Source of the DNA: Acidobacteriaceae bacterium | GTDB lineage: Bacteria > Acidobacteriota > Terriglobia > Terriglobales > Acidobacteriaceae | Direction: 5' to 3' | Assembly: GCA_903642235.1 (NCBI GenBank) | Contig: CAHJWL010000003.1 | Location: forward strand, 1 to 64,000 | Length of the DNA: 64,000 nucleotides | Shown here: piece after piece, positions 27,647 through 31,513 of the stretch | Numbering within the stretch: the first letter of the stretch is position 1 | Layout of the letters: each line of letters begins with the position of its first letter | Program-made: the position numbers and the translations under genes | Notes under the pieces: model-generated | Database searches by the model: none | What the model saw: only the letters and a program-made list of their open reading frames with translations | What the model was told of the DNA's origin: nothing

Positions 27647-28705
27647 GTGGTTGCTCTTCGCGCCGCGCTTCTCTCCGTGCTCCTCACCGTGCCGTGCGTG
27701 TGCGCGAACACTCCCGCACCTCCAATCGTGCATCGTTTTCATCAGAACCACCTTGCCATGGGCACCGAGTTCACTCTTGACCTGTATGCCCCGGACCAGG
27801 CCCTTGCCTCAGAGGTCGCCGCGCAGGCCTTTGATGAGATCGACCGTCTCGAGGCGCTCCTGAGCAACTACCGCCCGGCCAGCGAGCTCTCCCGCATCGG
27901 TCGCGAGGCCGCAGCACACCCCGTCATCACTGATCCCGAGACCTTTCACTTTTTGGAGCGCTCGCTCTTCTGGAGCCGCGAGTCCGATGGCGCCTTCGAC
28001 ATTACCGTCGGCCCGGTCCTCCGCGCCTGGGGCTTTTTCTTCCACTCCGGCCGTATCCCATCCTCGTCAGAACTTGTCGCGCTCCGCCCCCGCGTCGGCT
28101 GGCAGCACATCCACCTCGATCCCGGCACGCGTGCGGTCAGCTTCATGACGCGACAGCCGATGGAGCTCGACCCCGGCAGCATCGGCAAAGGTTTTGCTAT
28201 CGATGCTGTCATCGCCATCCTTCGCGAGCAGGGCATCACCTCGGCCTTTCTCTCCGCCGGCAACAGCACCTTATATGGCCTCGGCGCCCCACCCGGCGCC
28301 TTCGGCTGGCCGGTTCATGTTCCTGATCCCCACCACCCCGGTCAGCCGGCAGCAACCATCCTCCTGCACGACACTTCGCTCTCTACTGGCGCCTGCACCG
28401 AAAAGTTCTTCGTTCACAACGGCCACCGTTACTGCCACATCTTTGACCCCCGCACCCTGAGCCCGGCGGAAGGCATGCTCCAAACCTCTGTCATAGCCCC
28501 CAGCGCCACCGATAGTGACGCTCTTTCGACCGTGGTCTTCGTCCTCGATCCCCAAGCCACGCGCTACCTCCTCGAGCACACCCCAGAGACCCGCGCCCTG
28601 CTCTTCGGCCAGCCCCCTGATCATGAAGCGTGTCTCGCCATAAACTGGGAAGGGAGCCCTTGCACCTCAGCGAAGCCCTCCCCGCATAAGGACCTGCCTT
28701 TATGA
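27647..28705 (+). CDS. apbE: FAD:protein FMN transferase (ApbE family)
   Basis: An exported 352-aa ApbE-like enzyme, which attaches FMN covalently to a Ser/Thr of target redox proteins. Family segments are AMGTEFTLDLYA near the start, DPGSIGKGFAID in the middle, SAGNSTLYGLG and SATDSDALSTVVF near the end. A short hydrophobic leader (about 1-20) suggests periplasmic action. The start is a GTG without a Shine-Dalgarno sequence, so the true start is uncertain. Its stop overlaps the next start as ATGA, coupling it to a Gfo/Idh/MocA oxidoreductase. No obvious flavoprotein target such as Rnf or Nqr lies in the window. Confidence 0.88.
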   Translation: MVALRAALLSVLLTVPCVCANTPAPPIVHRFHQNHLAMGTEFTLDLYAPDQALASEVAAQAFDEIDRLEALLSNYRPASELSRIGREAAAHPVITDPETFHFLERSLFWSRESDGAFDITVGPVLRAWGFFFHSGRIPSSSELVALRPRVGWQHIHLDPGTRAVSFMTRQPMELDPGSIGKGFAIDAVIAILREQGITSAFLSAGNSTLYGLGAPPGAFGWPVHVPDPHHPGQPAATILLHDTSLSTGACTEKFFVHNGHRYCHIFDPRTLSPAEGMLQTSVIAPSATDSDALSTVVFVLDPQATRYLLEHTPETRALLFGQPPDHEACLAINWEGSPCTSAKPSPHKDLPL

Positions 28706-29976
28706 TTGCTCGCCGCCTCTTCCTTCAGGGCCTCTCCGCCACCGCCATTACTGCCGGCCTCGCCCCGGAGATCTCGGCCCAGGAGGCCGCCTCCCAGGCA
28801 GAGACCGAAGCCGCCCGCCAAATTGCTCCCTCCGCCGACAGCAGTCCCCTTCGTGTCGGCATCATCGGCCCTGGCAGCCGCGGCAAAGAGCTCGTCCGCA
28901 ATCTTCTTCGCGTTCCTGGCGTCCGCATCGTCGCCGCCGCCGATGTCTACCCGCCGCGTTTCGACCAGCTCAACCAAGTCTGCGGCTACACCGTCCCGTC
29001 CCACACGGACTATCGGGCACTTCTCGACCGCAAAGACCTCGACGCGATCGTCGTCGCTACACCCCTCGGCCTGCACGCCAGCCACGTCATCCCCGCGCTC
29101 CAGAGCGGCCGTCACGTTTATGGCGAGAAGACCATGGCCTACACCGTCGACCAGGCCCGGGACATCGCCGCAGCTGCCAAAGTCAGCAACCGCATCTACC
29201 AGGTCGGCCATCAGTACCGCTACAGTCCGTGGATTCGCGCAGCCATAGCTCGCGTGAAGGCCGGTGAGATTGGCAATGTCACCCACATCCTCGGCTACTG
29301 GAACCGCAACAACGACTGGCGCCGCCCCGTCCCTACCGCAGATCCAAGCGGCCATCTCGAGCGCCTCATCAACTGGCGGCTCTACCATGAGTGGTCCCTC
29401 GGCCTCATCGCCGAGCTCGGCTCTCATCACATGGACATTGCAAACTGGATCTTCGGCTCCGCCCCCACAACCGCTCTCGCCTCCGGCTCCATCTGCTGCT
29501 ATCACGACGGCCGCGAAACCGACGATAACGTTCAAGTCGTCCTCAGCTACCCTGCCGGCCGCCGCTTCATCTTCACCTCCATGACTGATAACGCCAAGCA
29601 GGGCGACCAGCTCTGGCTCTACGGCACCAAAGGCTCACTCAACGTCACCCTCGAAGATGCCACCTTCTTCTACGAGCCTCGCCAGATCGTCAAAGCCCCT
29701 ACAAACGGCAAGGGCGAAGAGAAAGGCGTCACCACCAGCGCCTCGTACCGACCCGAAGGTGAGATGCCCTACCGCGGCCCCGGCAAACCCTTGACCATCG
29801 CCAACCCCGAAGACGCCACTACCATCGCTATCCGCGCGTTCGTCCACTGCGTCCGCACCAACACGCAGCCCATCGCCAACGCCGACGTCGGCCTCGGTTC
29901 AGCTCTCGGTGTGATCCATGCAAATCAGGCACTGCGTGAGAAGAAAGAAGTCGCCATACCACTGATCTCGACCTAA
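28702..29976 (+). CDS. Gfo/Idh/MocA-family oxidoreductase, Tat-type leader
   Basis: A 424-aa NAD(P)-dependent sugar oxidoreductase of the glucose-fructose oxidoreductase family. The leader ARRLFLQGLSATAITAGLA resembles a Tat signal. The Rossmann motif is GIIGPGSRGKELVRN near residue 54. EKTMAY supplies the usual Lys (EKP-like) of this family, and HQYRYSP and ELGSHHMDIANW the substrate-side residues, including a His in the typical place. Its start overlaps the apbE stop by four bases. Export with a tightly bound cofactor is known for glucose-fructose oxidoreductase and is inferred here. The exact sugar is unknown. Confidence 0.9.
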   Translation: MIARRLFLQGLSATAITAGLAPEISAQEAASQAETEAARQIAPSADSSPLRVGIIGPGSRGKELVRNLLRVPGVRIVAAADVYPPRFDQLNQVCGYTVPSHTDYRALLDRKDLDAIVVATPLGLHASHVIPALQSGRHVYGEKTMAYTVDQARDIAAAAKVSNRIYQVGHQYRYSPWIRAAIARVKAGEIGNVTHILGYWNRNNDWRRPVPTADPSGHLERLINWRLYHEWSLGLIAELGSHHMDIANWIFGSAPTTALASGSICCYHDGRETDDNVQVVLSYPAGRRFIFTSMTDNAKQGDQLWLYGTKGSLNVTLEDATFFYEPRQIVKAPTNGKGEEKGVTTSASYRPEGEMPYRGPGKPLTIANPEDATTIAIRAFVHCVRTNTQPIANADVGLGSALGVIHANQALREKKEVAIPLIST

Positions 29977-30121: not shown

Positions 30122-30198
30122 TGGTGGCCCGGGCAGGAGTCCAACCTGCGACCTTCGCGTTAGGAGTGCGCTGCTCTATGCAACTGAGCTACCGGGCC
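30122..30198 (-). tRNA. tRNA-Arg (CCT) with exchanged 19-56 elbow pair
   Basis: A 77-base tRNA with encoded CCA. Acceptor GGCCCGG pairs with CCGGGCC, D-stem GCTC with GAGC, and T-stem GCAGG with CCTGC, all perfect. The discriminator is A. The anticodon loop CTCCTAA gives anticodon CCT (Arg). Two features are odd. The D-loop is AGTTGCATA, so position 19 is C (30180 on the plus strand). The T-loop is TTGGACT, so position 56 is G (30142). The usual G19-C56 tertiary pair is therefore replaced by C19-G56. The anticodon stem also has non-Watson-Crick ends: G27-A43 and A31-C39. A20, important for arginine identity in E. coli, is kept. Confidence 0.9.
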
Positions 30199-30280
30199 AC
30201 GTCTGCCTAGTGTACCCGCTCGGCTGGCCGAGAGAGGCGGATGACGGGGAGCGACTGGTAAACTAGGGACTGGAGCATCT

Positions 30281-31513
30281 ATGCCTCAGATAGTTCGGCG
30301 ACAGGCTGTTTCGGTGATGATCGGCAATGTGCGGGTGGGATCGGACGCACCGGTTGTGGTGCAATCGATGACCAATACGGACACGGCTGACACTGAAAGC
30401 ACCGTACAGCAGGTAGCCGCCCTGGCTCGCGCCGGCTCTGAGATGGTACGCATCACGGTGAACAACGACGACGCGGCGAAGGCAGTTCCGTACATCGTTG
30501 ACGAGCTTGCGAAGAAAGGGTGGACGACGCCTATCATCGGCGACTTTCACTACAACGGCCATCTTCTGCTGCGGAAGTATCCCGAGTGTGCGCGCGCGCT
30601 GGCCAAGTACCGCATCAACCCTGGCAATGTGTCCATCGGGCGCAAGGACGATGACAACTTCCGCACGATGATCGAGTGTGCTGTCGATAACCAGAAGCCG
30701 GTGCGAATTGGCGTGAACTGGGGATCACTGGACCAGGCATTGCTGACGCGAATGATGGACGAGAACTCGAAGAGCCATCAGCCGAGAGAGGCGCGCGACG
30801 TGATGATGGAAGCGATGGTCGTCTCCGCGCTCGATAACGCGGCGGCGGCGGAGCGGTACGGTCTGCGTCGCGACCAGATTCTTCTGAGCGCCAAGGTCTC
30901 AAACGTTCGGGATCTTCTGGATGTGTATACGGAGCTCGCGCGACGATCGGACTATGCCCTGCACCTCGGTTTAACAGAGGCGGGTATGGGGATGAAAGGT
31001 ATTGTCGCGTCAACGGCGGGTCTTGCGCCGCTTCTTCTCGCCGGCATCGGCGATACGATACGGGTAAGCCTGACGCCGACTCCAGGGGGCGATCGGTCTG
31101 AGGAGGTTCGCTGCGGCCAGCAGGTGCTGCAATCCCTTGGCATACGCAGCTTTATGCCCCAGGTCACAAGCTGCCCGGGATGCGGACGGACCACATCAAC
31201 CTACTTCCAGGAGCTCGCGGAACGCATCCAGAACTACCTTGTCGAGCAAATGCCGGAGTGGAAGCAGCAGTATGCCGGGGTTGAGGAGTTGAAGCTTGCG
31301 GTTATGGGCTGCATCGTGAACGGGCCGGGAGAGTCCAAGCATGCCAACATCGGCATCTCGCTTCCAGGAACCTTTGAAGAACCAAAGGCACCGGTTTACA
31401 TCGATGGGAAGCTCTTCACAACACTCAAGGGAGACCGCATTGTTGAAGAGTTTCAGGTCATCCTCGACGAGTATGTGGAGAAGCGCTACGGCAGGCATCT
31501 CGTCGTGGTCTAA
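30281..31513 (+). CDS. ispG: 4-hydroxy-3-methylbut-2-enyl diphosphate synthase
   Basis: IspG (GcpE), 410 aa, the iron-sulfur enzyme that turns methylerythritol cyclodiphosphate into HMBPP in the MEP isoprenoid pathway. The N-terminus contains [13 protein letters not shown]. The [4Fe-4S] ligands are Cys298 and Cys301 in SCPGCGR and Cys344 in GCIVNGPGE, followed by a Glu. GGAG lies seven bases before the ATG, and a TAAACT box at 30259 could be its -10. This is the compact bacterial two-domain form. It is convergent with a membrane glycosyltransferase gene ten bases away. Confidence 0.97.

Follow-up and report, generated by a model that had tools for sequence, protein, structure and literature searches.

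A naturally inverted C19-G56 elbow pair in tRNA-Arg(CCU) genes of Acidobacteriaceae and other bacteria

The tertiary pair formed by bases 19 and 56 of tRNAs is treated as practically invariant, and RNase P, elements of the ribosome and modification enzymes dock on it. Can both of its partners be exchanged in a gene that is kept by its host and, if so, how did such an exchange arise? This question is raised by a tRNA-Arg(CCU) gene of an Acidobacteriaceae bacterium, located in the first 64,000 nucleotides of contig CAHJWL010000003.1 (hereafter the window, i.e. the whole stretch of DNA that was analysed). The gene and its remarkable positions are the following:

30122..30198, minus strand: tRNA-Arg(CCU) gene, CCA encoded (ARAGORN call; RF00005, 56.5 bits)
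30142, minus strand: G56, normally C56, in the T-loop TTGGACT (sequence reading; position from the cmscan alignment)
30162..30164, minus strand: anticodon CCU (ARAGORN)
30167, minus strand: A31 opposite C39 (30159), a mismatch (cmscan and family comparison)
30171, minus strand: G27 opposite A43 (30155), a mismatch (cmscan and family comparison)
30180, minus strand: C19, normally G19, in the D-loop AGTTGCATA (sequence reading; position from the cmscan alignment)

The D-loop reads G18 C19 A20 and the T-loop U54 U55 G56 G57 A58. The canonical elbow pair G19-C56 is absent and is replaced by C19 and G56, while G18, U54, U55, G57 and A58 are the standard bases; the potential for a Watson-Crick pair at 19-56 is thus kept. 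In what follows, genes with C19-G56 are called swapped and genes with G19-C56 canonical. A first-pass annotation, made from the letters of the window, had described this complementary exchange in a gene encoding its CCA. Indeed, the sequence and the cmscan alignment concur in placing C at 19 and G at 56, the CCA is present, and the covariance model RF00005 accepts the gene well above its gathering score of 29, ARAGORN agreeing on Arg(cct). Of the two anticodon-stem mismatches that it listed, both exist, but G27.A43 also occurs in canonical Arg(CCU) genes from this family and so does not set the gene apart; A31.C39 (A31.G39 in Terriglobus) is seen, within this family, only in the swapped lineage. 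All helices other than the anticodon stem are intact. The set of bases specifying arginine in bacteria, A20, C35, U/G36 and A/G73 (PMC9976931, Table 1), is represented by A20, C35, U36 and A73. ARAGORN finds two other tRNA genes in the window, Ser(GGA) and Lys(UUU), and both carry C56, in line with the normal loops ascribed to them.

The mismatches of the anticodon stem could suggest a pseudogene or a sequencing error. This has next to no probability, as the gene is identical in 17 other genomes, its other helices are intact, its promoter box is conserved and it is the sole Arg(CCU) gene found in its genome. All 77 bases are the same in 17 of the 24 genus-mates searched, an identity by which decay and sequencing error were ruled out; one further copy matches at 76/77 and three at 71/77, and the 21 full-length copies all carry C19-G56. 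In the three remaining genus-mates, the gene is cut by a contig end (G015), only a 3' half with G56 is seen (G017), or only a weak match is found, in a 74% complete genome (G019). The same 77 bases also occur in named Granulicella and Edaphobacter records. The gene is therefore a kept variant and not a decayed copy, as the first-pass annotation had proposed. Two features upstream of the gene bear on its maintenance and its location:

30209..30214, minus strand: TACACT, a putative -10 box that ends 10 nt short of the mature 5' end (conservation upstream of related swapped genes)
30281..31513, plus strand: ispG (gcpE), divergent neighbour (Pfam GcpE, 6.6e-113)

Of the 59 distinct sequences upstream of related swapped genes, 41 contain the motif TA[CG]A[CA]T in their last 25 nt, and 39 of these 41 boxes sit 8-10 nt before the mature end, compared with a mean of 1.1 boxes and a maximum of 5 in 500 shuffles of the upstream stretches. 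In seven of the eight other family genomes examined (G167 being the exception), ispG and the swapped gene are no more than 5 kb apart; this holds for none of the 12 canonical genes examined. On the other side of the tRNA gene, positions 27647-29976 hold an ApbE-family gene and, directly after it, a gene for an oxidoreductase of the Gfo/Idh/MocA family; the tRNA is encoded on the other strand.

The genome that carries the window (3.79 Mb, 29 contigs, 99.87% complete) gives 46 tRNA matches corresponding to 45 distinct sequences, among which only the Arg(CCU) tRNA of the window is devoid of C56. The other arginine tRNAs (ACG, TCG, CCG, TCT) all have G19 and C56. Another intact Arg(CCU) gene, an observation that the first-pass annotation had held to speak against its own reading, was looked for and not found in the 29 contigs of this 99.87% complete assembly, a gene in an assembly gap being possible. 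The genome encodes a tRNA-Arg(UCU) and a TruB-family protein, and AGG accounts for 3.9 of every 1000 codons in 28 long open reading frames of the window (a rough set). It also carries two distinct tRNA-Cys(GCA) genes (L019, L030) and a tRNA-Trp (L062, G000:C23:9740-9809) that scores 39.1 bits, the lowest of the 46 matches.

The exchange is by no means restricted to this gene, and in this respect the first-pass annotation was too narrow: further lineages of bacteria show it, almost without exception in tRNA-Arg(CCU), and so do phage tRNAs. Named genomes were scanned with the pattern G18 C19 ... G53 UUGGANUC and a GCUC/GAGC D-stem, whatever the anticodon. Among the 120 stretches listed, 111 were identified by ARAGORN as Arg(CCU). 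The listed swapped stretches belong chiefly to Acidobacteriaceae (Granulicella, Edaphobacter, Terriglobus and Bryocella among the matches listed), Blastocatellia (Pyrinomonas, Aridibacter and others) and Caulobacterales (mostly Brevundimonas), with isolated cases including one Oscillospiraceae MAG. MAGs labelled Verrucomicrobia and Rhodanobacteraceae carry a swapped gene of acidobacterial type and a MAG labelled Bordetella one of Brevundimonas type; binning errors are possible in all of these.

The other 9 of the 120 listed stretches, not called Arg(CCU) by ARAGORN, include tRNAs for Asn in Mycoplasma sp. SG1, Thr in a Fibrobacter MAG, Gly in a Bacteroidales MAG and Arg(CCG) in Nocardia colli. 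L115, also among the nine, is G19-G56 by manual alignment, and L151 is ambiguous. Three cyanobacterial stretches from Symploca and Microcoleus (L120, L162, L203) are swapped and called Pyl(cta) by ARAGORN, whereas alignment of the anticodon loop by hand gives Arg(UCU). In the 0.6 Mb genome of Mycoplasma sp. SG1, one of the two pattern-fitting tRNA genes is swapped, namely the tRNA-Asn(GTT) of L141 (616001-622852 of NZ_CP076852.1).

How far the exchange extends in Acidobacteriota, and whether single intermediates exist, had both been raised by the first-pass annotation. A scan of 396 genomes of this phylum, in which G56 was obligatory while position 19 could be C or G and the anticodon was free, gave one match each in 36 genomes from 9 of the 210 genera, and all 36 matches are Arg(CCU) with C19. 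Furthermore, in each of five genomes compared (that of the window, Terriglobus roseus, Edaphobacter modestus and two Brevundimonas), exactly one of the 21-23 pattern-fitting tRNA genes is swapped, the Arg(CCU) gene.

The second point, i.e. the intermediates, was addressed with complete lists for two families. The window's family has 121 Arg(CCU) genes in 119 of 140 genomes, 11 being C19-G56, 110 G19-C56 and none mixed; the Brevundimonas family has 138 in 137 of 149 genomes, 21 being C19-G56, 117 G19-C56 and none mixed. No single mutant therefore exists among these 259 pattern-fitting genes, nor was any seen among the matches listed in two further scans. Among the 120 Arg(CCU) genes of viral contigs listed, 119 are canonical, one is swapped and none is mixed. 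When all anticodons are considered, viral contigs gave 54 C19-G56 stretches and two G19-G56 stretches. They also gave 69 C19-C56 candidates, most of which were rejected as single mutants because their D-loops read GCG and so still offer a G to C56; about seven of the 69, those without a second G, look real, as do the two G19-G56 cases. The single states are thus rare but not absent. In the GCG type (L596-L663, e.g. AGTTGCGTA, with C56), an extra base possibly lies between the usual two Gs.

The near absence of mixed states in the family lists and viral contigs indicates that positions 19 and 56 mostly change together, as a pair would. As C19 and G56 recur jointly in more than 100 genes while single changes are nearly absent, chance is excluded and the flipped pair of the window tRNA is real. 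The two single mutants may differ in their effects, as a table in PMC5039416 suggests: a plant protein-only RNase P cleaves 90% of a G19C pre-tRNA and 0% of a C56G pre-tRNA.

Such a distribution can result either from repeated change or from the spread of one gene. Judging from the loops, more than one origin of the double change is probable: whichever lineage is taken, what separates canonical from swapped D- and T-loops is mainly G19 to C and C56 to G. Three separate origins, one per bacterial lineage, would be the likely number. In the window's family, the D-loop changes from AGATGGATA in canonical genes to AGATGCATA in swapped ones, and the T-arm of some swapped relatives, GGCAG-TTGGACT-CTGCC, equals the canonical GGCAG-TTCGACT-CTGCC of G063 except for base 56. 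The swapped sequence of this family thus looks locally made, given this T-arm and the shared G27.A43. In Caulobacteraceae, a swapped gene (AGCCGCATA, TTGGAGT; G965) and a canonical one (AGCCGGATA, TTCGAGT; G919) differ only at positions 19, 42 and 56 over 54 matched bases; most swapped genes of this group have the D-loop AGCTGCATA. Under a uniform model with about 21 eligible tRNAs per genome, the same tRNA would be struck by chance in two further lineages about once in 440, a figure that is simple arithmetic and not a formal test.

In the window's family, the swapped gene has also moved, since swapped genes adjoin ispG and the canonical genes examined lie elsewhere. A tree of the IspG protein unites G430 with the ten swapped genomes (support 90/82, under the tool's mark of 95). 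G430 is the sister of the swapped G176 (100/99), and its Arg(CCU) gene (C1:3638544) is canonical and far from ispG; the 700 bases preceding its ispG showed no Arg(CCU) gene. These two congeners are therefore in opposite states, and a replacement in G430 is likely.

This new locus is one of the reasons for considering that a single ancestral swapped tRNA spread from a phage or between phyla, an alternative to repeated origin that we regard as rather improbable. Phages do carry swapped Arg(CCU) and Arg(UCU), and the window gene is about as close to the swapped genes of Brevundimonas (64/77) as to its nearest canonical relative among those compared (G063, 64 of 76 aligned bases). Acidobacterial or Brevundimonas types in MAGs labelled otherwise would also fit, binning errors being possible. 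Another point concerns the Blastocatellia-type loci, where near-identical swapped genes occur in two families. Among 15 such loci, 12 share one upstream gene of the tRNA (5 of 5 swapped and 7 of 10 canonical), a common position that speaks for change in place; this neighbour encodes a phosphoribosyltransferase domain and is probably apt. The tree of this apt-like protein is discordant with the state of the tRNA, swapped G292 grouping with canonical G049 (100/100), which implies more than one change or a transfer. This discordance weighs against the favoured reading of repeated change in local genes, as transfer would account for it equally well. However, the stems and the other loop bases are common to the swapped and canonical genes of the same lineage, which argues against the spread of one sequence.

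Mobile elements offer another route. An integrase acting at tRNA-Arg(CCU) may have swapped in its own 3' half with G56, C19 being the compensating change, or G56 may have been selected because it alters the attachment site. We consider this doubtful, and slightly more so than a spread by transfer. Copies of the 3' half carrying G56 do exist in viral contigs and genomes (L032, L036, L044, L665-L667), a Phage_integrase gene adjoins the copy in L032, and partial repeats of the 3' end are found downstream of several genes. The gene is an integration site, and the 3'-half copies in L665 (G017), L666 (G015) and L667 (G023), which are whole or partial and start near the anticodon loop at a distance from any whole gene, are probable attachment sites of integrative elements carrying G56. 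On the other hand, the swapped sequence is still present in these elements, the two complete family lists contain no Arg(CCU) gene with G19-G56, and within lineages C56G can be the sole difference between a swapped and a canonical T-arm, so that wholesale replacement of the T-arm by an integrative element was set aside as unsupported there. Moreover, with a single and insensitive query integrase and loci having at least 1.5 kb downstream, an integrase-like match was found at 1 of 36 swapped loci in the window's family, 0 of 19 of Blastocatellia type and 0 of 36 in Caulobacterales, compared with 0 of 12 and 0 of 9 canonical loci.

Phages also carry whole swapped tRNAs. ARAGORN recognized a tRNA in 53 of the 54 swapped viral stretches: 27 Arg(UCU), 9 Arg(CCU), 5 Thr and 12 others. 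Since bacterial swapped genes identical to six of the nine Arg(CCU) are known from the scan of named genomes, these six are probably proviral flanks. The excess of arginine is modest, the canonical viral control being also rich in Arg(UCU) (46 Arg(UCU) and 5 Arg(CCU) among the 151 viral tRNAs listed), and several sequences repeat one another. Three phage Leu tRNAs (L033, L035, L043) have G56 in an exact-match scan and C19 by manual reading. Many phage tRNAs of the viral contigs L310-L360 carry C19-G56, and in L037 and L045 the Arg(CCU) and Arg(UCU) genes are both swapped.

Globally, we favour, with good confidence, the reading that the window gene encodes a compensated, working tRNA-Arg(CCU) that reads AGG, the double change having arisen independently in about three bacterial lineages and having then been held by selection. 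The inverted C19-G56 pair would remain Watson-Crick. The loop-loop contact of the elbow and its exposed flat face, as described in PMC4810234, should therefore persist, so that the L-shape and the flat stacking surface offered to RNase P and the ribosome would be preserved. The arginyl-tRNA synthetase would still read A20, C35 and A73. Two compensating point changes in the local gene would have followed each other through a short-lived and disfavoured single mutant, independently in each of the roughly three lineages, and purifying selection would then keep the new pair. tRNA-Arg(CCU) may be able to bear such an intermediate because AGG is infrequent (see the codon count above) and can also be read by the tRNA-Arg(UCU) of the same genome. 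As a reason for the bias towards Arg(CCU), this is conjectural. Relaxed constraint alone does not explain the bias, since redundancy with a U34 isoacceptor is common to other C34 tRNAs, none of which is swapped among the 36 matches.

The folding, charging and translation that we infer for the swapped tRNA are extrapolated from its sequence and from engineered tRNAs with the same pair. The G19C/C56G double mutant of E. coli tRNA-Leu was reportedly studied by Du and Wang in 2003. According to PMC3602588, aminoacylation of the G19C/C56G variant is no different, and a broken pair abolishes it. Likewise, according to PMC10412605, charging of mitochondrial tRNA-Ser(UGA) is abolished by G19C and restored by C19:G56, recognition depending on the integrity of the elbow and not on the identity of the pair. 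By analogy, these results argue for near-normal charging and would match the pattern found here, in which both paired states seem viable and single states disfavoured. The effect on processing or on decoding of AGG codons that the first-pass annotation had thought possible would be conjectural.

Could the swap instead be adaptive? The tRNA might evade or recruit a factor that recognizes its T-loop or elbow (TruB, the U54 methyltransferase, a tRNA-cutting toxin or a regulator), leading to special decoding of AGG. The exchange affects one isoacceptor in unrelated lineages, is retained afterwards and recurs in phage tRNAs. Furthermore, the T-arm of TruB substrates has the consensus GUUYRANYC (PMC7912444), from which the window T-arm departs by G56 where a Y is expected, and a TruB-family gene is present in the genome. 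An effect on modification by TruB is thus possible. Nevertheless, we give an adaptive swap only a small share of probability: no candidate factor or phenotype was identified, and charging of engineered C19-G56 tRNAs is reported to be normal or restored (PMC3602588, PMC10412605). In its widest form, which we judge to be just as unlikely, the inverted pair would be a selected, convergent mark on the AGG/AGA-reading arginine tRNAs of bacteria and phages, treated differently by an elbow or T-loop factor so as to tune AGG decoding or protect the tRNA; this could mean, for example, the lack of pseudouridine at 55. More generally, consensus rules predicting modification of U54 and U55 may misjudge swapped tRNAs.

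Among the literature matches listed, no report of a natural C19-G56 tRNA-Arg(CCU) or of its distribution was found; subscription journals and tRNA databases lie outside this search, so that it may have been noticed before. A label identical to ours is used for an A-site tRNA in one structure paper, where we take it for a reversed naming of the normal pair. The term written there is 'C19-G56 pair' (PMC10944890). A natural flip restricted to one isoacceptor would make it possible to tell whether the partners of the elbow depend on the identity of the two bases or just on a flat pair of Watson-Crick type. In addition, the recurrence in Arg(CCU), with single mutants nearly absent, is a clean example from nature of how compensatory evolution crosses a fitness valley.

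Several known tRNAs are related to this case. The engineered tRNA-Leu and mitochondrial tRNA-Ser(UGA), as presented in PMC3602588 and PMC10412605, have the same inverted pair with normal or restored charging, but they are laboratory variants of other tRNAs, whereas the present case is natural, genus-wide and concerns a tRNA-Arg. tRNA-Pyl and many mitochondrial tRNAs likewise depart from the standard elbow; according to PMC7609411, they lose the 19-56 pair, unlike the window tRNA, which keeps it with its bases exchanged. Another counterpart is the canonical bacterial tRNA-Arg(CCU) (RF00005), with which the window tRNA has in common the cloverleaf, the CCU anticodon, A20, C35, A73 and the encoded CCA, and from which it differs by C19-G56, A31.C39 and a flipped 30-40 pair.
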